From Terriglobia bacterium (GTDB taxonomy: Bacteria > Acidobacteriota > Terriglobia > JAJPHL01), in contig JAJPHL010000055.1 in NCBI GenBank assembly GCA_021325275.1, positions 62,001 to 126,000 on the forward strand: 64,000 nt of DNA, in the 5' to 3' direction. The translations under genes and the position numbers were made by a program. Below the pieces are notes generated by a model. It was not told the origin of the DNA. It saw only the letters and a program-made list of their open reading frames with translations, and made no database searches. The stretch's first letter is position 1. Each line of letters starts with the position of its first letter. Shown piece by piece: positions 22,301 to 57,790 of this stretch.

Positions 22301-22761
22301 TGAAGACTCGCATCATCCTGGCCGTAACGGTTGCCGAAAGCGTGGCCGGCAATCTGGCGTTGGGGCACGGGATGAAGCTGGTCGGTGACCTTTCCAAACT
22401 CCCGCCGCTGCGCATGGCGGTGGCGTCGGTGGCGGCGCTGTTCAATCCTTGGGTTGCGCTCGGCGTGGTTCTGCTGATCGCTTGGTTTCTCACTTACACA
22501 ACCGCCCTTTCGTGGGCCGATTTAAGTTACGTCGTGCCGACGACCGCGATCGGCTACGTGATCACCGCAATTCTCTCGTATTTCCTCTTGCATGAAACGC
22601 TGAGTCCCGCGCGGTGGGCGGGAACGGTGTTGATCGCCGCGGGCGTTGTGCTGGTGGCGCGCACCGATGTTACGACCACGCCATGCGAAGTGACTTCGGC
22701 GGCTGCCGAGACGGCCGTGCAGCTCGGCCATGTGGCCGCCGAGGAAGGCGGCGCGTCATGA
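22300..22761 (+). CDS. Half-size EamA/SMR-like membrane protein 1
   Basis: This 153-residue protein has about four TM helices (near 5-22, 45-68, 76-96, 103-120) and an EamA-type pattern (SYVVPTTAIGYVITAILSYFLLHETLSPARWAG). It is half the length of a classical ten-TM EamA permease, like small multidrug resistance proteins and the ArnE/ArnF pair. It is coupled to hpnJ (TGATG) and to the next gene (ATGA). A role in moving a hopanoid or lipid-linked intermediate is inferred from context only. Confidence 0.82.
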   Translation: MKTRIILAVTVAESVAGNLALGHGMKLVGDLSKLPPLRMAVASVAALFNPWVALGVVLLIAWFLTYTTALSWADLSYVVPTTAIGYVITAILSYFLLHETLSPARWAGTVLIAAGVVLVARTDVTTTPCEVTSAAAETAVQLGHVAAEEGGAS

Positions 22762-23123
22762 CCTGGCTTTTGGTGGCGCTGGTCGTGGGATCGACGGCGA
22801 TCGGTGAAGTGGCGATCACGCGCGGTATGAAGCAAACCGGCGAGATCGACGATTTTCGCCCAGGCGCCTGGCTGCGATCGTTGGGCCGCGCGTTTTCGAA
22901 TCCTTGGCTGATGCTCGGCGTCGGCGGAATGACCGTGGCTTTCTTCAGTTTCCTGATTCTGGTGTCGCACGAAGACTTGAGCTTCTCCGTGCCCGCCACG
23001 GCGGCGACGGTGGTGGCGCAAACGTTAGGAGCCCGCTTCATTTTGCGCGAGCGCGTAGGCGTGGCACGCTGGGCCGGAACGCTGCTGGTGGCGGCGGGCG
23101 TCTTGCTGCTGCGCGCGGCGTAA
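22758..23123 (+). CDS. Half-size EamA/SMR-like membrane protein 2
   Basis: This 121-residue protein has four predicted TM helices and is homologous in layout to the gene before it (FSVPATAATVVAQTLGARFILRERVGVARWAG). The two overlap by four bases, as expected for subunits of a heterodimer. It lacks the 30-residue polar tail of its partner. The hpnI-like gene follows two bases after its stop. Confidence 0.82.
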   Translation: MTWLLVALVVGSTAIGEVAITRGMKQTGEIDDFRPGAWLRSLGRAFSNPWLMLGVGGMTVAFFSFLILVSHEDLSFSVPATAATVVAQTLGARFILRERVGVARWAGTLLVAAGVLLLRAA

Positions 23124-23125
23124 AC

Positions 23126-24244
23126 ATGTTCCTGCTTGCGGCGCTGCTCGCGGCGGCGATCATCTACAACCTGATTGTGATTTGGGCGGCGGAAGATTTT
23201 CGCCGCCAGCCCGCGGCGCCTGGGCCCGCAACTTCTCCCGCATTTTCCATTTTCAAACCGCTGCGCGGTAATGATCCGTGGCTCTACGACTGCCTCGCGA
23301 CGTTTTGCCGTCTCGACTATCCCGAGTATGAATTGCTTTTTTGCGCGGCCGACGCCGATGATCCGGCGCTCGACGTGGCGCGGCGCTTGCAGCAGGATTT
23401 TCCGGCGGTGCCCATACGAGTTTTCACTGCGGATCGCCGGCACGGCGCGAATCGTAAGGTGGATAATCTCGACAAGATGCTTCGCGAGATGCGTCATGAG
23501 ATTCTAGTGATTTCGGACGACGACATATACGCGCCGCCCGATTATCTGCGCCGTTTGGCGGCTGAAATTGCGCCGGCGGAAGTTGCCACCGTGACGTGTC
23601 CATATCGCGGCCGACCCGGCGGGACGTTTGCGTCCACGATGGAAGCACTCGGCATTGCCGGTGAGTTTTTTGGCGGCGCGTTTGTGGCGCGCAAAATGGA
23701 AGGCGTGCGTTTCGCGATGGGATCGACGATCGCCGTGCGCAAGTCGCGCGTGGAAGAAATCGGCGGATTCCCGGCTCTGGCCGATTATCTCGCCGACGAC
23801 TACGAGCTGGGCGCGAGACTAGCCGCGCGCGGATATCGCAACGTGATGCACACAATGATTGTGGACACGCAACTGCCGCCCGACACGTGGTCGTCGATGC
23901 TGGCGCATCAGTTTCGCTGGATGCGCACGCAGGCGATCTCGCGCCCCGGCGGACATTTGGGGCTCGGCGCGACGTACGGATCGCTTTGGTCCTTGGTATT
24001 GCTCGCCGCAAAGCCGGAGTGGTGGCCGCTCGCCGCGTTGTGGGCCGGTTCGCGCTGCGCGGCCTGTTGGTGGGCCGGCGCGCGCACGCTGGACGATCCC
24101 ACGGTGCGCCGCTGGTGGTGGCTGGCTCCTGTGCGCGAACTGCTTACGGCGGCGTTGTGGGTGGCGAGCTTGGTGCGCCGCACAGTGGTGTGGCGCGGCG
24201 AGCGCTATCGCGCTGATCGCGGAAAAATGGTCAGAGTGGAGTAA
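23126..24244 (+). CDS. hpnI: Hopanoid-associated glycosyltransferase HpnI-like
   Basis: This 372-residue membrane glycosyltransferase resembles ceramide glucosyltransferases (GT2/GT21). It has an N-terminal TM helix, FKPLRGNDP, ISDDDIYAPPDYL (metal-binding DxD region), the acceptor-site Asp pair in LADDYELG, and HQFRW (the Q/RxxRW motif), then two or three C-terminal TM helices. HpnI transfers N-acetylglucosamine to bacteriohopanetetrol; the neighbouring hpnJ supports that reading. No hpnK-type deacetylase is found here. Confidence 0.85.
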   Translation: MFLLAALLAAAIIYNLIVIWAAEDFRRQPAAPGPATSPAFSIFKPLRGNDPWLYDCLATFCRLDYPEYELLFCAADADDPALDVARRLQQDFPAVPIRVFTADRRHGANRKVDNLDKMLREMRHEILVISDDDIYAPPDYLRRLAAEIAPAEVATVTCPYRGRPGGTFASTMEALGIAGEFFGGAFVARKMEGVRFAMGSTIAVRKSRVEEIGGFPALADYLADDYELGARLAARGYRNVMHTMIVDTQLPPDTWSSMLAHQFRWMRTQAISRPGGHLGLGATYGSLWSLVLLAAKPEWWPLAALWAGSRCAACWWAGARTLDDPTVRRWWWLAPVRELLTAALWVASLVRRTVVWRGERYRADRGKMVRVE

Positions 24245-24895
24245 ATGGAGAACGAAGTACACGTCTGGCAAATCGCGCTGGACACGCTTCCGCCCGGTCG
24301 CGAACGCATCCTTTCCGCGAGCGAGTGCGATCGCATGGCGCGCTTCCACTTCGAACGCGATCGAGGGCGATATGCGGCGAGTCACGCGGCGTTACGGCAG
24401 ATTCTGGCGAGATATGCCGGCGGCGAACCGGCGGCGCTTGAGTTCACGGCGGGCCCGGGCGGCAAGCCGGCGCTCGAACCGAAAATGAATCCTTTGGGGA
24501 TTTCGTTCAATCTATCTCATTCCGGGGATCTCGCGATGGTCGCGGTGGCCCGGGGACGCGACGTTGGCGTCGACGTCGAGCGAATTCGCGGCGACATTGA
24601 GGCGCTGGAAATCGCGCGGCGCTTTTTCGATCCTGCGGAAGCGGCGGAGCTTGCGGCGCTCGCGCCCGATGCGGCTGATGGCGCGTTCTTCGCACTGTGG
24701 ACTCGCAAGGAAGCGTTGCTGAAGGCGCGCGGACTGACGCTCGGTGAGGGATTGCATCACGCCCCAGCCGAAGCCGCCGGCTACACGGTCCAAGGCATTG
24801 ACGCGCCAACGGGCTATGCGGCGGCGGTCGCGGCCGCGGGCAGCGGCTGGACGCTACGAACGTTTCAATTCTCTGATAAGACTTCCAGACCGTAG
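24245..24895 (+). CDS. 4'-phosphopantetheinyl transferase (Sfp/AcpT type)
   Basis: This 216-residue enzyme moves phosphopantetheine from CoA to a carrier protein serine. Both family signatures are present: GVDVE (metal-binding) and FFALWTRKEALLKARG. The two-lobed length is that of Sfp rather than of AcpS. It begins directly after the hpnI stop codon. The only carrier protein visible in the window is the ACP at 51443, a possible but unproven client. Confidence 0.93.
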   Translation: MENEVHVWQIALDTLPPGRERILSASECDRMARFHFERDRGRYAASHAALRQILARYAGGEPAALEFTAGPGGKPALEPKMNPLGISFNLSHSGDLAMVAVARGRDVGVDVERIRGDIEALEIARRFFDPAEAAELAALAPDAADGAFFALWTRKEALLKARGLTLGEGLHHAPAEAAGYTVQGIDAPTGYAAAVAAAGSGWTLRTFQFSDKTSRP

Positions 24896-44718: not shown

Positions 44719-44786
44719 AAGTTGCTGCTTTATTCTAGCCTGTTTCGCGCGGGCGGCTCGGAGACGGGCCGGGAAAACCGGCGGTG

Positions 44787-44792
44787 TATAAT
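44787..44792 (+). promoter_or_regulatory. Candidate -10 element for wzt
   Basis: TGTATAAT (TATAAT at 44787-44792) lies 28 bases before the wzt ATG at 44820. It has the TG extension at the -15 position, which can replace a weak -35. No good -35 is seen. Confidence 0.45.
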
Positions 44793-44819
44793 GACGTAGA
44801 CTCGATTGGCGCTCACTCG

Positions 44820-46088
44820 ATGGAACCCAACATCCGCTTAGCAGGCGTCTGGAAGAAATACCTCATTGGCGGTTCTCACTATCGCAGTTTGCGCGAAGAT
44901 TTTACGCGGGCCGGCGCCGCCATCGTGCGCGGCGTGGCGAAGGTCACCGGCGCCAAAGTCAACGTGATGCCCCCCCGCCCGGTTTTCTGGGCGCTCAAGG
45001 GCCTCGACATCGGGATCAACCCCGGCGAGCGCGTTGGGATCATCGGCGCGAACGGCGCCGGCAAAACCACCACGCTGCGCTTGATGGCGCGCATCACCAA
45101 AGCCACCAAAGGGACCGTGTACATGCGCGGACGCATCGGCGCGCTGATCGCGGTGGGCGCGGGCATTCACCCGGAACTGAGCGGACGCGAAAACATTTTT
45201 CTGTACGGTTCCATCATGGGGCTGAAGCGCGCCGAGATTCAGCGGAAACTCGACAGCATCGTGGCGTTTTCCGGAGTCGAGGAGTTTCTCGATACGCCGG
45301 TGAAGTATTACTCCTCGGGCATGCGCGTGCGCTTGGGATTTTCCGTCGCGCTGCACGTGGATCCGGAAATCATGCTGGTGGACGAAGTGCTCGCCGTGGG
45401 TGATTTCCAGTTTCAGAAACGCTGTCTCGATGGAATCGACGACATGGCGCGCCAAGGCACAACCATCGTGTTCGTCTCGCACGATCTGCATTCGGTGAAG
45501 CAAACTTGCCGGCGCGTGATCTATCTCAATCACGGCGAAGTGAAGTACGACGGCGAACCCCAAACCGCGATCAACGTCTACATGGACGACATGCGCAGCG
45601 GGACGGGCGCCCTCGGCGGTTCGACGCCAGGCGGACGCGGCACTCGGTTCGGTTCGTTCGACGCGGTGATCGAAGGCGTCCAGTTTCTTGACGGCCAAGG
45701 CCACGCGGTGGAGGAAATCCGCACCGGCGAGCCGCTCACGATTGAGATTCGTTACTACGCGCCCAAGCCCATTCCTGCGCCCGATTTCTCCACTTACATC
45801 CGGCGCAACGATGGCGAGCACGTTTGCTCATCGATGGCCTCTTGGGAAGGCCTGCGATTGAAGGAAATCTCCGGGCGCGGCGTGTTGCGCGCGACGATCA
45901 ATCAATTCGACATGGCTCCCGGCCGCTATCTGGTTTCGGCTGTGATTTTCGATTCCTCGGGCGTGGCCTTTATCGATCATCACCAGGACGCCTACGAACT
46001 GACAGTGCAATCCGACCGGCACGGTCAAGGACTGCTTTACCCCAAAGTTGCGTGGGCGGCGTCGCAGGAAACTCCCGCCGCGCGTTAG
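44820..46088 (+). CDS. wzt: Wzt-type polysaccharide export ATPase with C-terminal domain
   Basis: This 422-residue ATPase has Walker A GANGAGKTT, signature YSSGMRVRLGFSVAL and Walker B IMLVDEVLAVGD, which is the polysaccharide/teichoic-acid exporter type. The C-terminal 150 residues (IEGVQFLDGQGHAVEEI onward) match the Wzt carbohydrate-binding beta-sandwich that recognises the finished chain end. The permease partner is at 53886-54671 on the other strand. The ATG at 44820 is preferred to one at 44784 because the latter would include the -10 element. Confidence 0.9.
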   Translation: MEPNIRLAGVWKKYLIGGSHYRSLREDFTRAGAAIVRGVAKVTGAKVNVMPPRPVFWALKGLDIGINPGERVGIIGANGAGKTTTLRLMARITKATKGTVYMRGRIGALIAVGAGIHPELSGRENIFLYGSIMGLKRAEIQRKLDSIVAFSGVEEFLDTPVKYYSSGMRVRLGFSVALHVDPEIMLVDEVLAVGDFQFQKRCLDGIDDMARQGTTIVFVSHDLHSVKQTCRRVIYLNHGEVKYDGEPQTAINVYMDDMRSGTGALGGSTPGGRGTRFGSFDAVIEGVQFLDGQGHAVEEIRTGEPLTIEIRYYAPKPIPAPDFSTYIRRNDGEHVCSSMASWEGLRLKEISGRGVLRATINQFDMAPGRYLVSAVIFDSSGVAFIDHHQDAYELTVQSDRHGQGLLYPKVAWAASQETPAAR

Positions 46089-46735
46089 CGAACGGCTTCG
46101 CAAATCAGCAAGGAATCCTCGCGCGTTTCCAGACCGCGCAATTCCGGAACTTCACTCTCGCCCCTGCGGCAGTACCGAATGGTGCGAAATCCGGCGGTTT
46201 CCATGTATCGATGCAGTTCCTCATGGTCATAAATCCAGGTATGTCCCCACGCGCGCATCGCCGTATTCACCATCTCACACGGCGTGGCGATCCCGCTGTT
46301 GTGGGGAAGCTTCAACCAACTTTGCTCCCTCCATTCGCTGGACCCATACTGGCGCGCGATTTCTTCCAGCGACGGCGTGGCGACCCGCAACACTCCGTCT
46401 GGAATCAGCAAGCGATAGGCGTCGGTTAGGAAGCGCGCGCCTGTTTCGCGCGGCAAATGCTCGAAGAAATGCTCGTTGTAGATAAATTGGCAGGATGCCG
46501 CCGGCAGCGGATAAGGATCGTTGGCATCCCACGCGAACTCTCCAACGCCGTCGTAGTAATCGGTGTTGATCCAACCGTTCAAGAGAACCGTAGCGCAACC
46601 CACGTGCAAACGCACGGGATGAGGAAACCGCTCGTAGACACGGGCCGCTTTCCGCGCGTTGCGGATCCGCGCGTTGCGCTTCTCCCATCGGCCGGCGGCA
46701 TCGTGTAAACGGCGAGTGATCGAGGTAAGTTTCAT
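46085..46735 (-). CDS. SAM-dependent methyltransferase-like protein
   Basis: This 216-residue protein has a class I methyltransferase look: VRLHVGCATVLLNGWINTDYYD (SAM-binding), FIYNEHFFEHLP, FLTDAYRLLIPDGVLRVATP. It could methylate a sugar in the polysaccharide, perhaps a terminal one read by Wzt. It converges on wzt with a four-base overlap and diverges from the DegT gene. The ATG at 46735 fits; an ATG at 46756 is seven codons longer. Confidence 0.82.
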   Translation of the reverse strand: MKLTSITRRLHDAAGRWEKRNARIRNARKAARVYERFPHPVRLHVGCATVLLNGWINTDYYDGVGEFAWDANDPYPLPAASCQFIYNEHFFEHLPRETGARFLTDAYRLLIPDGVLRVATPSLEEIARQYGSSEWREQSWLKLPHNSGIATPCEMVNTAMRAWGHTWIYDHEELHRYMETAGFRTIRYCRRGESEVPELRGLETREDSLLICEAVR

Positions 46736-46822: not shown

Positions 46823-47971
46823 ATGCCAAGAATCCCGCTCATCAAGCCCGATCTTCCGCAACTGGAGGAAGTCGCTGACTCGTTTCGCGAAGTTCTTTCC
46901 AGCGGAAAAATCACGAATTTCGGAAAATACGTCAGCGCCTTCGAGAAAGAAGCCGGCGAATACTTGGGCGCCGAAACGGTGACTACGTCGTCGGGCACCA
47001 TGGCGCTGCTGTTGACGCTCCAAGCGTTGGGATTGAAGCAAGGCGAAAAAGTGATCCTGCCGAGTTTCACGTTCATGGCTACCGGACAAGCCATTCTCTA
47101 CGCCGGCGGCGTTCCGGTTTTCGCGGAATGCGAGAACGACTTGACCCTCTCGCCCGCGGACCTCGAGCAGTTGCTGGCGAAGCACGACAACGTGGGCGCG
47201 GTGATTCCCGTGCACACTTACGGACTGCCGGCGCGCACCGCGGAGATCGAAACAATCGTCGACGCCGCGGGACGCAAGCGCGGTCGTAAGATTCCGGTGA
47301 TGTACGACGCCGCGCACGCCTTCGGATCGTCGGCCGCGGGCCGCCGCGTGGGAACATTCGGCGACGCCGAGGTTTTTTCGCTCTCGGTGACGAAGATGCT
47401 CGTCAGCGTCGAGGGCGGCATGCTCGCGAGCCGTAATCCTGAAACGATCGCGCTGGTGAAAAAGATGCGTGGCTATGGCATCGAAGCCAACTACAACGCG
47501 CAATGGCCGGGCCTCAATGGCAAGATGAGCGAGTTTCACGCCATCATCGGCCTGCACAACTTACGGCGTCTCGGCGAACTTATGGCGGATCGCCAGAAGA
47601 AAGCGCGCCGCTATCTGGATTTGGTGAAAGCGCGCACCGCGTTCGACACGTTCCCTTGGCCGCAAGGCGTGGAGCACACCTTCAAGGATTTCACCGTGCT
47701 CGTGCCGCCCGGAACGGCGGAGACGCGCGACGCCGTGATGGCGTCGCTTTTGGAACAAGGCGTCGAAACGCGCGCCTACTTCCATCCGCCCGTGCATCAA
47801 CAAGGATGGTTCGCGCGTTTCGCCGATCGTCCGCTGCCGCGGACCGAAGATCTCGCCTCGCGCGTGATTACGCTGCCGTTTTACACCAGCATCACCGAAC
47901 AAGAAATGGAGCACGTCGCCAACGCGCTGGCGTCCGCGCAGAAACACTTTCACGCAGGAGCCTCAAGGTGA
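46823..47971 (+). CDS. DegT/DnrJ/EryC1/StrS sugar aminotransferase
   Basis: This 382-residue PLP enzyme converts a 3- or 4-keto nucleotide sugar to an amino sugar. The family features are GKITNFGKYVSAFEKE, TSSGTMALLLTL, and the PLP lysine in FSLSVTKML. The lysine is present, so it is not the degenerate dehydratase type. A TATACT lies eight bases before the ATG. It opens the plus-strand run that ends with a GT2 at 53889. Confidence 0.92.
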   Translation: MPRIPLIKPDLPQLEEVADSFREVLSSGKITNFGKYVSAFEKEAGEYLGAETVTTSSGTMALLLTLQALGLKQGEKVILPSFTFMATGQAILYAGGVPVFAECENDLTLSPADLEQLLAKHDNVGAVIPVHTYGLPARTAEIETIVDAAGRKRGRKIPVMYDAAHAFGSSAAGRRVGTFGDAEVFSLSVTKMLVSVEGGMLASRNPETIALVKKMRGYGIEANYNAQWPGLNGKMSEFHAIIGLHNLRRLGELMADRQKKARRYLDLVKARTAFDTFPWPQGVEHTFKDFTVLVPPGTAETRDAVMASLLEQGVETRAYFHPPVHQQGWFARFADRPLPRTEDLASRVITLPFYTSITEQEMEHVANALASAQKHFHAGASR

Positions 47972-49017
47972 CGATCCTTGTAACAGGCGGTGCGGGATAC
48001 CTCGGCAGTGTGCTGGTGCCGAAACTCTTGGCGCGCGGCCATCGCGTGAAGGTGCTCGACATCGGCTATTTCGGAATCGGACATTTGCGAGCGTTTCGAC
48101 CGACGGTCGAATTGTTCCGCGAAGATATTGAGCGAGTTGTTAACGACCATCGCTTTTGCGACGAGCTACTCGATCAAGTGGACTGCATTATCCATTTGGC
48201 GGCGATCTCTAACGATCCCTCGGCGGAACTGAATCCCACCTTGACCAAACATGTGAACTTCGACGGCACTTTAGCGCTGGCCGAAGAGGCCCGCAAGCGA
48301 GGGATTCACTTTGTCTTTTCGTCTTCGTGTTCAGTCTACGGCGAAGCGCCGGGAGAACTGACGGAGGACTCACCGCTCGAGCCGCTCACCGCCTACGCTC
48401 ACTCCAAGGTCGAGGCCGAGGCCGCGCTCGGGCAAATGGCGGGTGGCGAGTGGCGTCCCGTTTCGCTCAGAAACGGAACGCTGTTTGGCTATTCTCCGCG
48501 GATGCGCTTTGATTTGGTTGTGAACATCTTTAGTCTTTACAGCACGCTCTACAACGAAATCAAGGTGTTCGGCGACGGCCTGCAATGGCGGCCCTATTTG
48601 CACGTCAACGATTGCGCGCGTGCGTTCGTTCATTTTGCGGAGAAACGCGACCATTCTCATTTTGTGTACAACATCGCGCATGAGAATCTGCGAGTCGTCG
48701 ATGTCGCTGGATTGTTTCAGCAAATGAACCCGCGCCTGAAGGTCTCTCATTTGAACATGGTCGAACCGGATCGTCGCGATTACCGCGTGAGGGCGAGCCG
48801 CATGGAAGGGGCCGGCTTCCTGCCCCGGTTGACCGTCGAGGCGGGTGTCGTCGAAATCACAGAAGCGATTATCAACGGGCAGATTCCCGATCCGGAGTCC
48901 ATCTATTACCGCAATGCCAAATGGTTAAAAGAGCTGAGCGAGTTAGGGAACCGCAGCCACCGGGAGATCCTCGGCCTGATGGAAAACATTCCTAATCGAG
49001 CCGCCACCTCTTTCTAG
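47968..49017 (+). CDS. NAD-dependent sugar epimerase/dehydratase (extended SDR)
   Basis: This 349-residue enzyme has VTGGAGYLGSVL at the N-terminus and YAHSK with a preceding SSCSVYG, the extended-SDR active site. It probably acts on a nucleotide sugar. The start is a GTG at 47968 overlapping the previous stop (GTGA), with CAGGAG upstream. Confidence 0.92.
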   Translation: MTILVTGGAGYLGSVLVPKLLARGHRVKVLDIGYFGIGHLRAFRPTVELFREDIERVVNDHRFCDELLDQVDCIIHLAAISNDPSAELNPTLTKHVNFDGTLALAEEARKRGIHFVFSSSCSVYGEAPGELTEDSPLEPLTAYAHSKVEAEAALGQMAGGEWRPVSLRNGTLFGYSPRMRFDLVVNIFSLYSTLYNEIKVFGDGLQWRPYLHVNDCARAFVHFAEKRDHSHFVYNIAHENLRVVDVAGLFQQMNPRLKVSHLNMVEPDRRDYRVRASRMEGAGFLPRLTVEAGVVEITEAIINGQIPDPESIYYRNAKWLKELSELGNRSHREILGLMENIPNRAATSF

Positions 49018-49026
49018 TCAACCTCC

Positions 49027-49713
49027 ATGTCCGAGACTGGAATCATCATTGTTGGGGCCGGAAAACACGGTTGGGAACTGGACTCCTACCTTTTGGACGC
49101 CGCGCGGGAAGGAAGTCCGCTGCGCTTGGCCGGCTATATCGACGAACACAAAGCCCCCGGTCCATGGGGCTCGTCTCGAATCCTCGGTAACTTCGAAACA
49201 CTGCGGCAAATGGCGGCCGCCGACCCTTCGAAACCACTGCAGTACATCACGGCGGTTGGTGACAATCGCGCACGACGAGAAATGGTGGGCAAACTGGAAG
49301 CGCTCGGCTGCCCGAATCTTGTCCCGGGAATCATTCGCCACCCCTTCTCATCGGTCGGCCTGAAAAACGAGATTGGAGAGGGAACCTGTTTGGCGCCCGG
49401 CAGCATCATCAGCACGGAGGCTCGCCTAGGACGTCACGTGATCATGAATATGCGGGCATTGGTTTCGCACGAATGCGTTGTGGAAGACTACGCAAACCTG
49501 AATCCGGGTTGCATCCTGTGCGGGAACGTGCGCGTTGAAGAGGGAGCCTACATCGGACCTGGCGCGACGGTCATTCGTAACGTTACCGTCGGAGCCTGGT
49601 CCGTGGTGGCAGCCGGTGCGACGGTGTTCACCAACGTTCCGCCAGGTGTCACGGTGATGGGTGCGCCGGCTCGCAAGATCATGAGCAGAGAGGATCTCCC
49701 CAGCCGGCCATGA
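49027..49713 (+). CDS. NeuD/PglD-like sugar O/N-acyltransferase
   Basis: This 228-residue enzyme has an N-terminal Rossmann-like domain (IIIVGAGKHGWELDSYL) and a left-handed beta-helix of hexapeptide repeats, with catalytic His in ALVSHECVVEDYANL. PglD, WecD-like and NeuD enzymes acylate an amino sugar from acetyl-CoA. Here the acyl donor could instead be the ACP made by the next genes; that is inference. Its stop overlaps the start of the FkbH gene (ATGA). Confidence 0.9.
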   Translation: MSETGIIIVGAGKHGWELDSYLLDAAREGSPLRLAGYIDEHKAPGPWGSSRILGNFETLRQMAAADPSKPLQYITAVGDNRARREMVGKLEALGCPNLVPGIIRHPFSSVGLKNEIGEGTCLAPGSIISTEARLGRHVIMNMRALVSHECVVEDYANLNPGCILCGNVRVEEGAYIGPGATVIRNVTVGAWSVVAAGATVFTNVPPGVTVMGAPARKIMSREDLPSRP

Positions 49714-51446
49714 CATTGAATCAAGCCTTGGCAACGATTCATTCTCACCGTCAAGGAAGCGTGCAGCATTCCCTCTCGTTGCTTTGCGGGTTTGAACCCC
49801 TCCATCTCTCCACGTTTCTACAAGCCCACGCCATGGAGCGGCTGGAAGGATCGAACGTTGCGGTCAAGACCGGAATCTTCGGTGACCTAACAGGCAATCT
49901 GGCCCGCGCCACCGAACATCAGGAAGGCGTTGCCGCCGTAGTCGTGGAATGGCCGGATCTGGACGCCCGCCTGGGCTTGAGGGCCAGCGGTGGGTGGTCA
50001 AGATCGATTCGCCTCGATATCGCCAAGACGGTTGCCGCACGCCTGATGCAGCTAGCGGACTTGATCGAGGGACTCGCCTCCGGCACTCCCGTCGCGCTGG
50101 CCGGTCCTTCCTTGCCCTTGCCGCCTCTCGGACATACGCCTCCTGATCAAGCAACCACATTCGAACTTCTGCTTCAGGAACACGTGCTTACATTCCTGCG
50201 CCGTATGAGCGAAAGGCCCGGAGTGCGCGTCGTTCACCCGACGTGGTTGGAGAACGTCAGCCCGTTGAGCCAACGCCTGGACCCGCGCCTGGAGATTCTT
50301 GCAGGATTTCCGTACTCGCTCAAACATGCTGACGCGCTGGCCGCGGCGCTTGTAAACCTGCTTTACCCGAGAGTCGCGAAGAAAGGACTCATCGTGGATC
50401 TCGACGACACGCTCTGGGCCGGGATCGTCGGCGAGGTGGGAGTGGAGAGTATCTCCTGGCATCAAGAACATGGGACCCAGATTCATGCTCTCTTGCAGCA
50501 AATGCTTGGACAGTTGGCTGAGAGCGGTGTGCTTTTGGCAATCGCTTCCAAGAACGAAGCCGCGATTGTCCGCCAAGCCTTACAGCGACCCGATCTGTTG
50601 CTTCCGGCCGATTCATTCTTTCCAGTGATCGCAGGCTGGGGACCAAAGTCCGCCGCCGTGAAAGAGATCTTGCAAGCCTGGAACGTCGGGGCCGAGAGCG
50701 TCGTAATCCTGGACGACAATCCGATGGAACTAGAGGAGGTGCGATCCTTATTTCCCGAGGTGACCGGCCTTCGATTTACTCCGGGCGATCCCGCCGCAGT
50801 TTGGCGGCTTCTGGGAGAGTTGCGCGAGTTGTTTGGCAAGCAGGAGGTCCACACCGAGGATGTATTGCGCGCATCGAGCCTTCGCGCGGGAGAAGCATTT
50901 CGGTCGGCGGGCGGGAATCTGAATAACGGCACTGCCGGAGCAGAATTCCTGGCTTCTCTCGGCGGCTGCGTCGAAATCGATTATCGACTCGCCTCCGCCG
51001 ACGAGCGGTATCTGGAACTCATCAACAAGACCAATCAATTCAACTTGAACGGTGCGAGAATGACGCAAGCGGAGTGGAACGCAGCCTTGCACGCCGATGG
51101 CGCCGTCGCGGTCACCGTTTCCTACCGCGACAAGTTCGGACCATTGGGGAGGATCGCCGTCCTGCTGGGCCGCCGCGCCCCAGACCACATTCGGGTAACC
51201 GCTTGGGCGATGAGTTGCCGAGCGTTCTCCCGAAAAATCGAATACCATCTGTTGGATAGTATGTTCGGTGAATTCGATGTGGAGTGCTTGCTCTTCGATT
51301 TCCGGGCGACCTCCCGCAACGAACCGCTGCAGAGTTTCTTCCGCGATCTGGGCGTGTTCACGCCAGCGGCAGAACCCCTCCGGCTCTCGCGCGGGGATTT
51401 TCGACGACGCCCCCCATTGCCACATGAAGTGAGGGTATGGTCATGA
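49710..51446 (+). CDS. FkbH-like HAD-IIIC protein
   Basis: This 578-residue protein has an N-terminal region of about 215 residues, a HAD-IIIC domain with the nucleophile motif DLDDTLW (Asp230, Asp232, Asp233) and a C-terminal GNAT-like acyltransferase region. FkbH enzymes in antibiotic pathways take 1,3-bisphosphoglycerate and load a glyceryl unit onto an ACP. An ACP gene follows with an ATGA overlap. Here the surroundings are polysaccharide genes, not PKS genes. Confidence 0.9.
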   Translation: MTLNQALATIHSHRQGSVQHSLSLLCGFEPLHLSTFLQAHAMERLEGSNVAVKTGIFGDLTGNLARATEHQEGVAAVVVEWPDLDARLGLRASGGWSRSIRLDIAKTVAARLMQLADLIEGLASGTPVALAGPSLPLPPLGHTPPDQATTFELLLQEHVLTFLRRMSERPGVRVVHPTWLENVSPLSQRLDPRLEILAGFPYSLKHADALAAALVNLLYPRVAKKGLIVDLDDTLWAGIVGEVGVESISWHQEHGTQIHALLQQMLGQLAESGVLLAIASKNEAAIVRQALQRPDLLLPADSFFPVIAGWGPKSAAVKEILQAWNVGAESVVILDDNPMELEEVRSLFPEVTGLRFTPGDPAAVWRLLGELRELFGKQEVHTEDVLRASSLRAGEAFRSAGGNLNNGTAGAEFLASLGGCVEIDYRLASADERYLELINKTNQFNLNGARMTQAEWNAALHADGAVAVTVSYRDKFGPLGRIAVLLGRRAPDHIRVTAWAMSCRAFSRKIEYHLLDSMFGEFDVECLLFDFRATSRNEPLQSFFRDLGVFTPAAEPLRLSRGDFRRRPPLPHEVRVWS

Positions 51447-51688
51447 GCACGGACGTGCGGGAACGAGCAAGTCGCTGTTTTCAAAACGTCTTCCCCGGAC
51501 TCCCCCAAGGGGAGATTCCTCACGCTAGCATGGCGTCACTCGCGGCTTGGGATTCGCTTGCCCACGTGACGCTTCTGATGGCAATTGAAGAAGAGTTCTC
51601 GCTGACCTTCTCGCCCGCCGATTTTCAGGAGCTCACTTCCTACGATTTGATCATCGACTTCATGGAAAGCCAACCGAGCCATGGATGA
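51443..51688 (+). CDS. Stand-alone acyl carrier protein
   Basis: This 81-residue carrier has its attachment Ser38 in WDSLAHVTLL, where the usual pattern is DSL. The ATG at 51443 overlaps the FkbH stop (ATGA); an ATG at 51437 is in frame. It needs a phosphopantetheinyl transferase; an Sfp-type one is encoded at 24245-24895. The last eight bases overlap the next gene. Confidence 0.9.
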   Translation: MSTDVRERASRCFQNVFPGLPQGEIPHASMASLAAWDSLAHVTLLMAIEEEFSLTFSPADFQELTSYDLIIDFMESQPSHG

Positions 51689-52862
51689 GCCGGCGAAGGC
51701 ACAAACATTCGAGAGCCAGGACCTGAGAACCGGTCTAACGGCCTCTTTCGAGCGGAAGATCGAAGAAGCGGATATCGCCACCTTCGCGACGCTTTCCGGT
51801 GACTTCAATCCGCTTCACGTGGACCGGGCCTACGCCAGCCAAACCAACTATGGGAGTCCCATCGTCCACGGAGCCTTTCAAGTAGCCCTGGCGTCAACGA
51901 TGGCGGGAATGTATCTGCCGGGACGTAATGTCGTCGTGGGATCTTTCCAAGCACGTTTCCCAGCGCCTTTGTACGCGCCGTGCGTTGTCGTGGTACGCGG
52001 CGTAATCGTGCACTGGGTCCCTTCCACCAGTACGGGCGTCTTGCGGGTCACCGTAGTGGCGCAAAGCAACTCAAATCTAACGGCGGATATCACGGTAAAT
52101 TTCGGAATGCACGAGCAAGGGTCCGCCAAGGTCGCTTCTGTTTCTCGGGGCGCTCCACGGGGTGAAAACGAATCTCCCCTTTTGGTTGTGACCGGGGCCG
52201 GCGGCGCAATCGGATCCGATCTCGTCGCATCGCTGCCTCATTCATTTCGTATTCTTGCCTTGGCTAGATCGCCGCAAACCTCCGTTCGCTCCGGCGTCGA
52301 GTATTTGTCCTGCGACTTAGAGGAGCCGGATTGGGAATCGACTCTGGATGCTGCGGTCGATGGCAATGCCGTCTACGGAGTTGTTCACGCGGCCTGGCCG
52401 GGCGCGCCGATGGGCGGGCTGATGGATGCGGAACCGGACGTTGTATCTCGCCAAGTCCGCTTTGGAAGCGCGGTCACGATCAGACTTGCGAACTGGCTCA
52501 GCCGGCACGTTCAGGGCAGTGGCCGCTTCGTGGCGCTCAGCTCCACGGCCGCATCTCTGAAACCAGTGCTCAACCTTTCCGCGTATTCCCTCGGCAAGGC
52601 GACCCTGGAACATACCATCCGCTTGCTCGCGCCGGAGCTGGCGCGTAAGAAGATTACGGTTAACGCGGTGTCGCCTTCCTTCATGCCCGTAGGAATGAAT
52701 CGGACAGCCAACAACCGTGCGATCCTCAGCGAAAGCGCCAAAGTTCCGCTGGGAAGACTCTGCTCGGCGGCGGATGTCGTGGCGTCCGTGCGTTACCTTC
52801 TCTCGGAGGACGCGGCCTTTCTAACGGGTCAGGTTCTTCCCCTCACCGGCGGGCAGTTGTAG
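51681..52862 (+). CDS. MaoC-like dehydratase fused to an SDR
   Basis: This 393-residue protein has an N-terminal MaoC hot-dog domain (about 14-140) with its active-site motif FATLSGDFNPLHVD and SPIVHG, then an SDR domain (about 165-393) with TGAGGAIG, the S-Y-K set (ALSST; YSLGK) and a C-terminal LTGQVLPLTGGQL. The pair would act as (R)-hydroxyacyl dehydratase/hydratase and ketoreductase on acyl-ACP. The fusion order and the coupled ACP gene suggest substrate channelling. Confidence 0.9.
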   Translation: MDEPAKAQTFESQDLRTGLTASFERKIEEADIATFATLSGDFNPLHVDRAYASQTNYGSPIVHGAFQVALASTMAGMYLPGRNVVVGSFQARFPAPLYAPCVVVVRGVIVHWVPSTSTGVLRVTVVAQSNSNLTADITVNFGMHEQGSAKVASVSRGAPRGENESPLLVVTGAGGAIGSDLVASLPHSFRILALARSPQTSVRSGVEYLSCDLEEPDWESTLDAAVDGNAVYGVVHAAWPGAPMGGLMDAEPDVVSRQVRFGSAVTIRLANWLSRHVQGSGRFVALSSTAASLKPVLNLSAYSLGKATLEHTIRLLAPELARKKITVNAVSPSFMPVGMNRTANNRAILSESAKVPLGRLCSAADVVASVRYLLSEDAAFLTGQVLPLTGGQL

Positions 52863-52926: not shown

Positions 52927-53889
52927 ATGAGCCGCCCCCTCGTAACCTTCATTGTTCCTTGCTACAACTACGGGCGGTATCTGCCTGATTGTCTCGGCAG
53001 CATTTTTGAGCAGCAAAGCGACTTTGATTTTGAAGTGATCGCGATCGACGACGCAGCGATCGATAATTCGCGGGAAATTCTGGAAAGTTATCGCGATCCG
53101 CGAATGCGGATTATCACGCACGAGAAGAATCAGGGCGCGCTCGCCGCCGTCACCCACGGTTTCGAAGCGGCCCGCGGAAAATACGCGGCGCGCATCGATC
53201 CCGACGATCGCTATCATCCGAATTTTCTCGCGACCCTCGTACCGGTGCTGGAAGCGCATCCGGAAATCGGCATGGCGTATGGCGACGCCGCGATGATCAA
53301 CGGCGACGGCGTGGTGCAGGAAGCGGCGCTCGATTCCGTACACGGCGGCCGAGACTTCGTTGGCAACGAGTTGGTCGCGCTGATGCAACATCACTTCATC
53401 TGTGCGCCCACCGCGCTCGCGCGCATCGAAGCATGGCGCGGAGCGCTGCCGATTCCCTCGCACCTGGCCTTCAACGACATTTGGTTCAACTGGATGATCG
53501 CGCGCGATTGGGATTACTGCTACCGGAACGTTGTGGTGGCCGACTATCGTGTCCATGGAACGAATTGGCATGGGCGGATCGCGCGCGATGGATCCGAGGA
53601 AAAGTCGATTGTATGGCTGCTCGACAAGATTTATTCGACGCCCGAAAAATCCGCGGAGTTGGAACGCGCCAAACAACGCGCGCGCTCGCAAGTGTACGGC
53701 GCGCAGTATCTGGGATTCGCGCGGCGATACTTCGGCGCGGGGATGGAAGCCGATTCGCGGCGCTGCTTCCTGCAAGCGTTTCGGGTGAATCCGCGAACGA
53801 TTTTTGCCGATCGCGTCCTCCGGCACTTCTTGGGAACGGTGGTGGGATTGAAAAACTACAACGCCACGAAAGCGACGCTTAAGAGTTAA
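52927..53889 (+). CDS. GT2-family glycosyltransferase
   Basis: This 320-residue GT-A enzyme begins SFIVPCYNYGRYLPD-like (TFIVPCYNYG), with IDDAAIDNS and the RIDPDD metal/donor motif. No TM helix is seen. Its 3' end overlaps the convergent Wzm gene by four bases. It ends the plus-strand run of the locus. A GATACAAT at about 52872 is a weak candidate -10. Confidence 0.92.
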   Translation: MSRPLVTFIVPCYNYGRYLPDCLGSIFEQQSDFDFEVIAIDDAAIDNSREILESYRDPRMRIITHEKNQGALAAVTHGFEAARGKYAARIDPDDRYHPNFLATLVPVLEAHPEIGMAYGDAAMINGDGVVQEAALDSVHGGRDFVGNELVALMQHHFICAPTALARIEAWRGALPIPSHLAFNDIWFNWMIARDWDYCYRNVVVADYRVHGTNWHGRIARDGSEEKSIVWLLDKIYSTPEKSAELERAKQRARSQVYGAQYLGFARRYFGAGMEADSRRCFLQAFRVNPRTIFADRVLRHFLGTVVGLKNYNATKATLKS

Positions 53890-54671
53890 ACAATATCGGC
53901 GAACGCCTGTTCCACCCAGCGGAAATAAAGCACCGCCAGCGACAATCCGACGATCGCGCCGGCCGACCCAATCGCCAGATTTGCGAGCGGCGGCGCTTGT
54001 CCCATCACGAGACACCGCCGAAATCCGTCGACCACCACGGCCACGGGATCGGCCATGTACAGCCAATACAATTTCGGATACTGCTGCGCGACTTTGTCCG
54101 CCGAGTAAACCACCGGCACGCCGTAAATCCACAATTGCAACACCAGCGGCAGCGCGTAACGGATGTCGCGATAGAACACGTTGAGTCCCGCGAAGAACAA
54201 GCAGACACCCGAGGTAAAGACGATGAGAATCGCCAGCAGCGGAAAAACGTACAACGCCGTCAACGTGAATTGCACCTTGGCGTGATACCAAATCATGATT
54301 CCCGCGCAAAGAATGGACGACACCAGAAAATCGGCGCTGGCCACGATGATCGACGACAGCGGAATCACCATGCGCGGAAAATAAACTTTGTTGATGAGAT
54401 CACTCGCGGTCACGAGACTGGGAATCGCTTGACCGAGCGAGCCGGAAAAGAGCGTCCACGGCAAGAGCGCCGTGAAATAGAAAAGCGGATACGGCAGGCC
54501 GCTCGAATCAAGATGCGCCACGCGTCCGAAGACCACGGTGAAGACCAGCATCTGGGAAAGCGGCTGGATGATCGCCCACAAGAGGCCGAGAAACGTTTGC
54601 TTGTAGCGGATGCTTAGCTCGCGAATCGCGAAACTCCACAGCAGTTCGCGAGCTTCCCAAAGTTCGTGCAT
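53886..54671 (-). CDS. wzm: Wzm-type ABC-2 polysaccharide export permease
   Basis: This 261-residue membrane protein has six predicted TM helices and the ABC-2 signature region near WAIIQPLSQMLVFTVVFG with RYKQTFLGLLW at its N-terminus. It is the partner of the Wzt ATPase at 44820 but lies at the far end of the locus on the other strand. A NIPSNAP gene upstream ends three bases before it. Confidence 0.9.
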   Translation of the reverse strand: MHELWEARELLWSFAIRELSIRYKQTFLGLLWAIIQPLSQMLVFTVVFGRVAHLDSSGLPYPLFYFTALLPWTLFSGSLGQAIPSLVTASDLINKVYFPRMVIPLSSIIVASADFLVSSILCAGIMIWYHAKVQFTLTALYVFPLLAILIVFTSGVCLFFAGLNVFYRDIRYALPLVLQLWIYGVPVVYSADKVAQQYPKLYWLYMADPVAVVVDGFRRCLVMGQAPPLANLAIGSAGAIVGLSLAVLYFRWVEQAFADIV

Positions 54672-54674
54672 CTT

Positions 54675-55487
54675 CTAACGGATGTCCGATCCGTTGATGG
54701 GAACGAGGATCGCGTTGCTGATGTTCGATACCAGCGGCGGCTTGGCGAATTCCGGAACGGCTTGCAGCTTTTTCCACTCGTCGTCGTTGCGGAACGCCGT
54801 CCAGGCTTTGTCGCGCGCGGCCATGTCGTCGAACGCGACCATATACGTGAGGCGCGGCATGTTCGATCCCGCGATGCACTCGCCGAACCACACCGGCTGC
54901 AATCCGCAGCGGCGGAAGATTCCCACTTCGCCGGAGCCGAACATTTTAATCTTGCGGGCGCCCAGCGTTTGATTCGCTGACTCGTAGGTGCGCATTTCAA
55001 AAACGCGCGCGGGACGTTTGGCGTCGCCGGAACCGGGCTCGGGCGCCGGAAAAAAGTCGAAGGCGCGCAGGAGCCATGTTTCCATGCGCTCGTACGCGCG
55101 GCTCGGAGATGTATCGGAAGTGGACGAATCGAAATCGGCCAGCGCTTTTTGATACGCGCTATCGGCCAAGAGTTTTTCGCGCACTTCGTTGACGTGCGCA
55201 AACGTCGGATACGTCGTGAGGGCGATCGTGAACGGTGTCGATGGCGCGATCGACGAGCCGAACAGACCGATCGTCGTGGCGCCGGCGCGCTTCGCCGCCG
55301 GCATGTACGCGCCGGTCAAGAAATCGGCGGTGCGTTTCTCCTGCGCGGTGGAATCGGTGCGCAGTTGAAAATGGCGCAGTTCGTAGTACGAACTCTTGGC
55401 GGTATCGGCGGCTTCGCCTAAGGCACCGGCGGCGCCCGCGGCCACCACAGTTGCGATCATGCTGCGGCGAGAAATTGTTTCGGACAT
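54675..55487 (-). CDS. NIPSNAP-family protein with Tat signal
   Basis: This 270-residue protein has a twin-arginine signal (ISRRSMIATVVAAGAAGALG) and two NIPSNAP-like ferredoxin-fold modules (YYELRHFQLRT; RVFEMRTYES). NIPSNAP proteins have no settled function. It is followed directly by wzm on the same strand, but a link is unlikely. Confidence 0.88.
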   Translation of the reverse strand: MSETISRRSMIATVVAAGAAGALGEAADTAKSSYYELRHFQLRTDSTAQEKRTADFLTGAYMPAAKRAGATTIGLFGSSIAPSTPFTIALTTYPTFAHVNEVREKLLADSAYQKALADFDSSTSDTSPSRAYERMETWLLRAFDFFPAPEPGSGDAKRPARVFEMRTYESANQTLGARKIKMFGSGEVGIFRRCGLQPVWFGECIAGSNMPRLTYMVAFDDMAARDKAWTAFRNDDEWKKLQAVPEFAKPPLVSNISNAILVPINGSDIR

Positions 55488-55512
55488 AAGATCCTTGATT
55501 CTATCAGAGGCA

Positions 55513-57765
55513 CTACATTCCCGGGTGGTATTCCCGCTGAGTGTGACCCTTCAGTTGCTCGCGATAGAAATAAACTTCGCGCAAATTTCCCGTGGCGTAG
55601 CGCTTGGCTTCGTCGTTGAAGTGCGGAGACTTCGGATCGCCGCTCTCGCCTCCGGCCGTAACAGCTCGGGCACGCACTTTGTCGCCGAACTCCACGACCG
55701 CCACAAAGCTGTTGCCGCTGGTTCCGTACCACTTTTTCGTGCCGGGATACGCGCGCGCGCCAAACGACGCGAGCGATCCCCACGCGGACGAAGTGAACGC
55801 CACGGGAATGCTCGGCGCGCTGTCGTCGAACTTCTGCACGATGTCGCCGTTGATGCGCTGATAGCGATTGAGGTCGCCCCAGGGAGTTTTCCACGTGCCG
55901 AAGTCGGCGGTGAGTTTATCGGACGCCGCGACCAGCGCCTGCAAGAGTTGATCGCCGGGCAAACGAGCGATGTTGTCCTCCGGCATTTCGCCGGGTCCGC
56001 GGGGATTGCGTCCGCCGGCGCCGCGTCCGCCACGGCCCGAAGCTTCTCGCTGCGCGCGTTGTATCGCGTCGCCCCAGAAAACCGCCAGCGATGTTGGAAT
56101 CGATTTTTCCGCCCAGCGGAAGTCCCAGCCGCGTAGCAGGGCGACTTGCTCCGACAACTGGGCGCGGCGCGGATCGCTCTCGGGCAGCGCGTCGTACGCT
56201 TTCACGAGCGCGGGAATCGTTTTGTCGAACCACGGGAGATAGCTGTCGTACGCGGCGGCGATCAAGGAGTCGAGCGTGAAATCCTTTTTGCCGTCGAAGA
56301 CGCGCAGGGCGTGCAAGCCGCGCGCCGACTCACCGCCGTTCTCCACGTACGGCGGGTAATCCTTCATCTTGGGACTGCTCGCGCCCGCCGCCGACCACGG
56401 CCAATTGTTCGAGTTGTAGAGCCAACCGCTGGCGGGATTCAGCAATTGCGGTAATTCGTCGACGTTGAGTAAGCCTTTCCACTCGGTGGCGGGCGTCGAG
56501 CCGTCGACGGGTCGAGACCAATCGTAAGCTGTGTCGCGGCGCGGAATGAAATTACCGTGAAAGTAGGCGATGTCGCCGTCGGCGTCGGCGAAAATCGTGT
56601 TGTTCGAGGAGTTCGCTTTCAACTCCATCGTTTGGCGATATTCCTTGTAGTTTCGCGCTTTCGTGCGCGTATACGACTGCGTAAGCGCCTTGATCGGCTC
56701 TTGCATCAAGCGAATGGTCACCCACTTGCCCGGCGCTCCCGCCAAGGCGGCCTGTTCGCGAATCACCGGTCCATGATGCGTGCGATAGACCGTGAATTTC
56801 TTCGTCTGCATGCCGTGATCGCTCTTGTAGGGCACACTGATTTCTTCCGTGATCACGGGGCGTTGCTCGTCGCCGTATTTGTAAACCCAGCCGCTATCTT
56901 TTTTCTCGATCGTCTCCAGGTATTCGTCGACGGCGTCCACGCCGCTCGACGTGTGCATCCATCCGGCGCGATCGTTGAATCCTTGGTAGATAAAAAACTG
57001 TCCCCACGTCGACGCGCCGTAGGCGTTCAGTCCTTCCTCGCTGACCATTTGCAATTCCGAGCGGAAGAAAAACGACGTGTGCGGATTGATCAGCAGCAGC
57101 GCGTGATGATTCACCGTGTTCGAGGGCCCGACGGCCGCGCCGTTTGATCCGGATGGTTCGGGCGGAGGCGCGTTTAGTTCATCGCGCAACAGGGCGGTTT
57201 CGCTGACCGGCGTCTTTCCGCCGCCGTAAAACGCTTGAAGCTGAGTCAAATTCACTTTCTCGATGTCGCCGCCGATGCTGCCTTCAGTGAAACTAAGCGC
57301 CATCCACGGCTCGAAGTGGTGGATCACGCGCGGCGTGACGTGGGGATGTTTGTAGAGATAGAAATTCAATCCGTCGGCGAACGCGACCATCAGCTTTTGC
57401 AGCCACGCGGGACTTTCTGCGTAGTCTTTCTTGAGCGCCTCGGGATTGATGAACAGCTTCATCCGCAAGTCCTGATAGATTTTCGATTCGCCCTCGGCTT
57501 CGGCGAGGCGTCCCATGGCGTTGATGTAATTTGTCTCGACGCGGTTGAAATCGTCTTCGGCTTGCGCGTACTCCGATCCGAAGACGCAGTCGGCGTCGGT
57601 TTTGCCGTAGATATGCGCGATGCCCCAGTCGTCGCGAATGATGGTGATGCGTGCGGCTTGATCGCTCCAGCGCGCGACCTCCGCGGGAGACGCCTGCGGA
57701 ATCCTTTGCGCAAAAAGGGACGCGGTCAAGTCCGCGAGTAGAAGCAGCTTGTGGATGAATTTCAT
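55513..57765 (-). CDS. Penicillin acylase-family N-terminal nucleophile hydrolase
   Basis: This 750-residue periplasmic amidase has a signal peptide (1-19), an alpha-chain region, and a likely autoprocessing site with the nucleophile Ser207 in SGSNGAAVGPS. GWGIAHIY-like (DDWGIAHIYG) at residue 45 and INPHTSF are typical. In relatives it cleaves acyl-homoserine lactones or beta-lactam side chains. A Gly/Arg/Pro-rich stretch (GRGGRGAGGRNPRGPG) interrupts the C-terminal part. In-frame starts at 57783-57786 are alternatives. Confidence 0.9.
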   Translation of the reverse strand: MKFIHKLLLLADLTASLFAQRIPQASPAEVARWSDQAARITIIRDDWGIAHIYGKTDADCVFGSEYAQAEDDFNRVETNYINAMGRLAEAEGESKIYQDLRMKLFINPEALKKDYAESPAWLQKLMVAFADGLNFYLYKHPHVTPRVIHHFEPWMALSFTEGSIGGDIEKVNLTQLQAFYGGGKTPVSETALLRDELNAPPPEPSGSNGAAVGPSNTVNHHALLLINPHTSFFFRSELQMVSEEGLNAYGASTWGQFFIYQGFNDRAGWMHTSSGVDAVDEYLETIEKKDSGWVYKYGDEQRPVITEEISVPYKSDHGMQTKKFTVYRTHHGPVIREQAALAGAPGKWVTIRLMQEPIKALTQSYTRTKARNYKEYRQTMELKANSSNNTIFADADGDIAYFHGNFIPRRDTAYDWSRPVDGSTPATEWKGLLNVDELPQLLNPASGWLYNSNNWPWSAAGASSPKMKDYPPYVENGGESARGLHALRVFDGKKDFTLDSLIAAAYDSYLPWFDKTIPALVKAYDALPESDPRRAQLSEQVALLRGWDFRWAEKSIPTSLAVFWGDAIQRAQREASGRGGRGAGGRNPRGPGEMPEDNIARLPGDQLLQALVAASDKLTADFGTWKTPWGDLNRYQRINGDIVQKFDDSAPSIPVAFTSSAWGSLASFGARAYPGTKKWYGTSGNSFVAVVEFGDKVRARAVTAGGESGDPKSPHFNDEAKRYATGNLREVYFYREQLKGHTQREYHPGM

Positions 57766-57790
57766 GGGATTTCTCGCAACCATCATAGCT

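Follow-up and report, generated by a model that had tools for sequence, protein, structure and literature searches.

What acid is built on the acyl carrier protein (ACP) encoded in a bacterial polysaccharide locus, and to what is it delivered? The question is raised by an operon in a stretch of 64,000 nucleotides from a Terriglobia bacterium of the phylum Acidobacteriota (contig JAJPHL010000055.1 of assembly GCA_021325275.1, positions 62,001 to 126,000 of the forward strand), here called the window; the genome comprises 75 contigs and 6.86 Mb in total. The operon joins putative amino-sugar genes to genes for an FkbH protein, a free ACP and a fusion of a MaoC domain with a short-chain dehydrogenase/reductase (SDR). 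It is best explained as the acyl-ACP branch of a surface-polysaccharide operon that makes an N-lactoyl sugar, although for this explanation taken whole the chances appear evenly balanced. Delivery of a three-carbon (C3) acyl-ACP to an amino sugar is likely, and the identification of the acyl group as lactyl could go either way. Six genes make up the operon.

46823..47971, + strand, DegT/DnrJ sugar aminotransferase, the first gene of the operon (PF01041; 3bn1/3dr7, E~4e-44)
47968..49017, + strand, NAD-dependent epimerase/dehydrogenase-type extended SDR with a GTG start (PF01370; nearest solved structure 6vo6)
49027..49713, + strand, NeuD/PglD/VioB-type left-handed beta-helix N-acyltransferase (TIGR03570 above cut-off)
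49710..51446, + strand, FkbH, predicted glyceryltransferase/phosphatase (TIGR01686 above cut-off)
51437..51688, + strand, free ACP with a probable start at 51443 (PF00550 above cut-off; WDSL)
51681..52862, + strand, MaoC (R)-hydratase/dehydratase domain fused to an SDR ketoreductase domain (PF01575 and PF13561)

A preliminary description of the window had named the last four as overlapping genes for a NeuD-like protein, FkbH, an ACP and a MaoC-SDR fusion, placed behind amino-sugar genes in a polysaccharide locus. All of this is borne out: the four lie on the + strand at these positions and family scans agree with their names, DegT and the NAD epimerase were found upstream, and genes for Wzt, a GT2 glycosyltransferase and Wzm surround the operon. 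From DegT to MaoC-SDR the genes overlap or nearly abut. As read from the sequence, the DegT stop is overlapped by the epimerase GTG at 47968 (GTGA), NeuD and FkbH overlap by 4 bp (ATGA), and ACP and MaoC-SDR overlap by 8 bp; FkbH and ACP share 10 bp or, with an ACP start at 51443, an ATGA. Scans for promoters and terminators of the operon gave a signal no greater than in shuffled sequence.

The identities of the encoded proteins are established by family scores and by motifs that have remained intact. FkbH scores 211.5 bits on TIGR01686 (cut-off 146.65) and is also above the cut-off of TIGR01681. It has the three-part architecture of an N-terminal SGNH-like domain, a HAD-IIIC core and a GNAT-like C-terminal domain with an SCR cysteine, and its structural model (predicted local distance difference test, pLDDT, 83) matches 3slr in the N-terminal/HAD part, MDP-1 phosphatases, SGNH/GDSL-like hydrolases and GNAT folds. 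The DLDDT motif, K313, D335-D336 and the SCR cysteine C503 are kept when compared with FkbH proteins of polyketide synthase (PKS) type, of MBOAT-associated loci and of related cassettes, and the same motifs are conserved across nine relatives. The ACP carries the serine of its WDSL motif. The nearest solved relatives of the MaoC-SDR protein are HTD2, (R)-specific enoyl-CoA hydratase and FabG; D41, N43, P44 and H46 of the MaoC domain and S288, Y302 and K306 of the SDR domain do not vary among four fusions that represent two phyla. At pLDDT 66 the fusion model is moderately reliable and contributes a match to the SDR fold only. A second FkbH is encoded in the genome (L043, G000:C33, 9054-11987), within a 977-residue frame whose N-terminal half could not be identified and with no recognised glycan locus nearby.

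The NeuD-like protein scores 169.1 bits on TIGR03570 (cut-off 160.8), with PF00132 (hexapeptide) and PF17836 (PglD_N) also above cut-off, and its nearest solved relatives are PglB, VioB and perosamine N-acetyltransferase. It resembles the NeuD, PglD, VioB and perosamine N-acetyltransferases in fold, length and family score. Characterised members of the NeuD/PglD/VioB family use acetyl-CoA, whereas the enzyme of the window is proposed to be an acyl-ACP:amino-sugar N-acyltransferase, the acyl-ACP donor being suggested by gene context only.

FkbH enzymes form a glyceryl-carrier protein by loading 1,3-bisphosphoglycerate and dephosphorylating it (PMC7489565, PMC10099666, PMC8949500). In the route proposed here, FkbH would take the glyceryl unit from 1,3-bisphosphoglycerate, its HAD domain would remove the phosphate, and the phosphopantetheine of the free ACP would receive the glycerate, probably via the SCR cysteine. 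A 4'-phosphopantetheinyl transferase (PPTase) gene at 24245-24895 of the window could provide the enzyme that primes this ACP. The MaoC domain would then eliminate the C3 hydroxyl, giving 2-hydroxyacryloyl and, by tautomerisation, pyruvyl, whose 2-keto group the fused SDR would reduce to leave lactyl-ACP; for a dehydratase and a ketoreductase working on glyceryl-ACP, the pyruvyl enol followed by lactyl-ACP is the one simple joint outcome. The epimerase and DegT would make a nucleotide-linked, perosamine-like 4-amino sugar from a 4-keto precursor that may come from GMD or RmlB, and the NeuD-like enzyme would acylate its amine to an N-lactoyl sugar. Glycosyltransferases would incorporate this sugar, and Wzt/Wzm would export the glycan. 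Glyceryl loading, ACP priming and N-acylation are predicted by analogy with characterised families, and from the logic of the pathway we infer the lactyl group, the sugar and its incorporation into an exported glycan.

Since perosamine synthetases are the nearest solved relatives of DegT and gmd is encoded elsewhere in the genome, a 4-amino-4,6-dideoxyhexose, for instance perosamine, is the probable sugar. The exact sugar may be another, as rmlB is also encoded elsewhere in the genome and the triad of dehydratases is missing from the epimerase. The epimerase itself was considered as a 4,6-dehydratase and rejected, as it carries SCS where 4,6-dehydratases have the TDE triad.

According to the preliminary description, a short acid, oxidised or reduced, could be built on the ACP and passed to an amino sugar of the exported glycan. 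The delivery is the best reading by context and relatives, and a reduced C3 acid, lactyl, is favoured. The oxidised option did not hold. A methoxymalonyl or tartronyl route needs dehydrogenases and an O-methyltransferase, and compared with the FkbG-FkbK type the operon has MaoC and a FabG-like SDR only, with no acyl-CoA dehydrogenase or O-methyltransferase family.

The same order of genes was looked for elsewhere. Fusions were found through an alignment of FkbH, which gave a clade in Acidobacteriota genomes and one Opitutia genome, and then with a profile built from the fusions themselves. FkbH-ACP-MaoC-SDR is present in 12 loci from three phyla, the window included, and the 11 further loci (seven fused, four unfused) indicate that the cluster is more than chance. 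The fused relatives are L091 (Opitutia), L092, L126, L142, L143, L144 and L145. The fusions of the first three stand directly after FkbH-ACP and are 46-49% identical. The profile revealed the fusion in five more genomes of the class (6/399 with the window's own genome), and FkbH and ACP precede it in four of these five (L142-L145, the contig end falling inside FkbH in L143). Among 388 genomes of the Opitutia phylum the profile gave nothing beyond its seed, a search with one sequence among 396 phylum genomes revealed no other fusion, and no plasmid record matched the fusion at 80% coverage. Separate FkbH, ACP, MaoC and SDR genes are consecutive in L084, L085 (where FkbH is truncated) and L086, and the unfused set of L038 is interrupted by an MBOAT gene. 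In a tree, seven cassette SDRs cluster apart from FabG-type SDRs (84/96) on long branches, and the proteins of L038 show no clear grouping with them.

Within this FkbH clade the FkbH-ACP pair is nearly constant, and in 8 of the 16 loci MaoC-SDR comes after the ACP. This pattern fits an optional converter of glyceryl to lactyl. Another explanation is that the delivered acid is glycerate itself, giving an N-glyceroyl sugar, and that MaoC-SDR clears mis-loaded acyl groups or serves another substrate. FkbH-ACP without MaoC-SDR is common beside acyltransferases (L036, L040, L045, L089, L095), and 4-amino-4-deoxyquinovose (Qui4N) and pseudaminic acid (Pse) are known to carry N-glyceroyl or glyceric acid amides (PMC9912281). 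Campylobacter jejuni, which has the FkbH gene cj1302, makes di-O-methylglyceroyl Pse. The MaoC-SDR gene is, however, translationally coupled to that of the ACP, follows ACP in twelve loci and has kept its catalytic residues, which suggests that it acts on the same ACP; glycerate as the delivered acid is regarded as unlikely.

Acyltransferases of three unrelated folds are found beside most cassettes. NeuD adjoins the cassette in the window and in L145, a GNAT-like transferase in L091, L092 and L126 (from weak Pfam matches in L091 and L126 and from homology in L092), and an MBOAT in L084, L085 and L038. Such variety is expected if the cassette delivers one acyl-ACP to different acceptors. Tentatively, FkbH-ACP-MaoC-SDR might be a dedicated, modular, ketosynthase-free route from 1,3-bisphosphoglycerate, an intermediate of glycolysis, to lactyl-ACP with interchangeable NeuD, GNAT or MBOAT enzymes, and the source from which the rare N-lactyl amino sugars arise in bacterial polysaccharides. 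An unnamed protein of 360-378 residues with no Pfam or NCBIfam match is shared by L142-L144.

The length of the acid depends on ketosynthases. None was found in the whole 64-kb window with local profiles for ketosynthase III (KSIII) and ketosynthase (KS) domains, both built from few sequences; the KSIII profile had positive controls, and the KS profile, made of 9 domains, had none among the open reading frames searched. The earlier claim that a ketosynthase is missing is thus upheld for the window under these profiles. No ketosynthase implies that the acid stays at three carbons. Tetronate formation was rejected on the same searches, as they gave no FabH-like enzyme or KSIII in the window.

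A C4-C6 hydroxy acid could still arise if a starter or extender from FkbH were elongated by ketosynthases, either housekeeping or unlinked, and SDR and MaoC processed the beta-keto product. A ketoreductase with a dehydratase is the standard pair for beta-processing, and the O-antigen module of Flavobacterium psychrophilum combines two ketosynthases with an ACP, a reductase and a PglD homologue (wfpC-wfpG; PMC6519341). Ketosynthases have also joined related loci. L145 (G1008:C602, 1223-8053) has in series Bac_transf, NeuD, KSIII, SDR, FkbH, ACP and MaoC-SDR, as well as a Wzz/tyrosine-kinase-like protein; its divergent KSIII was missed by tblastn with a KSIII query and detected with the profile. 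L050 has two KSIII genes with SDR, FkbH and DegT. Against this, the two profiles gave a ketosynthase in no cassette locus other than L145, and a plain 3-hydroxybutyryl group would not need FkbH. A longer acid is therefore held to be quite unlikely, with the reservation that the KSIII and second SDR next to the cassette make extension beyond C3 possible at least in L145.

Several observations weigh against the formation of an N-lactoyl sugar. Ketosynthases can join such loci, as L145 and L050 illustrate, and the cassette also occurs outside polysaccharide loci (L086). Genome G1026 has ACP-MaoC-SDR-acyltransferase, and its only FkbH is on another contig beside another ACP, so that MaoC-SDR need not sit with FkbH. 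In addition, the sources consulted document no MaoC dehydration of a glyceryl thioester. G1026, the ketosynthase-bearing L145 and L050, and the position of L086 outside glycan loci are the reasons why the lactyl step is rated as about evenly balanced.

Some of these loci merit separate description. L050 (G123:C47, 3349-10846) comprises Bac_transf, DegT, ACP, FkbH, two KSIII, SDR and a match to hexapeptide transferases, and represents an acyl-ACP line in a glycan locus. L086 (11239-15714), on a Subdoligranulum plasmid record, has FkbH, ACP, MaoC, SDR and a further unnamed protein, with no evident polysaccharide locus. L146 and L154, both of G1026, form the exception to the linked cassette.

The genes around the operon bear on whether its product reaches a glycan at all.

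44784..46088, + strand, Wzt-type ABC transporter ATPase with a C-terminal glycan-binding domain (PF00005 and PF14524 Wzt_C)
46085..46735, - strand, methyltransferase-like gene, divergent and outside the operon (PF13489/PF08241 weak, below cut-off)
52927..53889, + strand, GT2 glycosyltransferase, the last + strand gene of the block (PF00535)
53886..54671, - strand, Wzm-type ABC-2 transporter permease, convergent with the operon (PF01061; Wzm/RfbD similarity below cut-off)

Both parts of a Wzt/Wzm export system, a Wzt with its C-terminal domain (PF14524) and an ABC-2 permease (PF01061), are above their cut-offs. Wzt lies upstream on the + strand and Wzm downstream on the - strand, and the operon is thus flanked by both rather than by an adjacent Wzt/Wzm pair. 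The acyl-ACP might instead feed a small secondary metabolite or a lipid, its position in a polysaccharide locus being incidental. FkbH proteins are mainly familiar from clusters for polyketides and peptides, the Actinobacterial FkbH loci examined often carry PKS genes, and the copy in L086 is outside an evident glycan locus. This is considered very unlikely, given that the operon is tightly packed from DegT to MaoC-SDR between Wzt, GT2 and Wzm, and that its relatives adjoin genes for Bac_transf, polysaccharide deacetylase, PIG-L or Pse. Polysaccharide or PIG-L deacetylases are beside several loci (L126, L144, L146), and PseB, PseC and PseG, all above cut-offs, are directly downstream in L126.

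Known systems share parts of this arrangement. Like the tetronate, methoxymalonyl polyketide and vioprolide/corramycin pathways, the operon has a member of the FkbH family with predicted glyceryl loading on a carrier protein. Unlike them, it has no PKS or nonribosomal peptide synthetase, no FabH-like tetronate enzyme, no methoxymalonyl dehydrogenases and no O-methyltransferase; the KSIII of tetronate-type glycerate utilisation is likewise not found in the window. In bryostatin biosynthesis, a modular PKS, the BryA loading module combines FkbH with ketoreductase and dehydratase domains to provide a D-lactate starter.

A close parallel among glycan loci is the F. psychrophilum module, which has been proposed to put a C6 3,5-dihydroxyhexanoyl group on the 4-amino group of 2-acetamido-4-amino-2,4-dideoxyquinovose (Qui2NAc4N) (PMC6519341). 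Both loci have an ACP next to a PglD/NeuD-type transferase in a polysaccharide locus. They differ in that the module's two ketosynthases have no counterpart in the window under the KSIII and KS profiles, where FkbH takes their place and MaoC is fused to the reductase; FkbH is not mentioned in the description consulted. In C. jejuni the flagellin glycosylation locus holds cj1302 (PMC7099621), and the flagellin carries di-O-methylglyceroyl Pse (PMC3068675). An FkbH gene in a surface-glycan locus is common to both bacteria, and the Pse of C. jejuni bears a glycerate-derived amide. There, however, the glycan is on flagellin, the glycerate is O-methylated, no MaoC-SDR has been described, and neither source establishes the role of cj1302. 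In view of these cases, the surface decoration is less singular than the "unusual" one of the preliminary description.

Acyl-ACP lines feeding PglD-type transferases have thus been proposed before, and an FkbH gene in a glycan locus is known. New, as far as could be found, is the ketosynthase-free combination of FkbH and ACP with a MaoC-SDR fusion, recurring as a cassette with interchangeable transferases. Amide-linked lactyl is a rare substituent of bacterial polysaccharides, reported on 4-amino-4-deoxyrhamnose (Rha4N), 3-amino-3-deoxyfucose (Fuc3N) and Pse, with a glyceric acid amide on Qui4N (PMC9912281). These amides agree with the type of product proposed, and no paper was found that gives the biosynthesis of N-lactyl sugars. 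The cassette offers a testable origin for them. If the proposal is true, it would provide a gene signature to predict N-lactoyl decorations from genomes, and N-glyceroyl decorations where MaoC-SDR is missing, and it would connect the diversity of glycans with a loading enzyme of polyketide type.

Some further associations were seen. An MBOAT O-acyltransferase adjoins FkbH-ACP or lies close to it in L036, L040, L045, L046, L047, L048, L051, L052 and L089. This combination is frequent in Acidobacteriota, was also found on one Rhodobacteraceae plasmid, and suggests glyceryl O-acylation of some acceptor. In the window, positions 20831-24895 encode in series a B12-binding radical SAM protein, a GT21-type glycosyltransferase and the PPTase, which is of Sfp/AASDHPPT type. 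Directly behind Wzm, at 54675-57786, are genes for a NIPSNAP-domain protein and a penicillin-amidase/PvdQ-like acylase.

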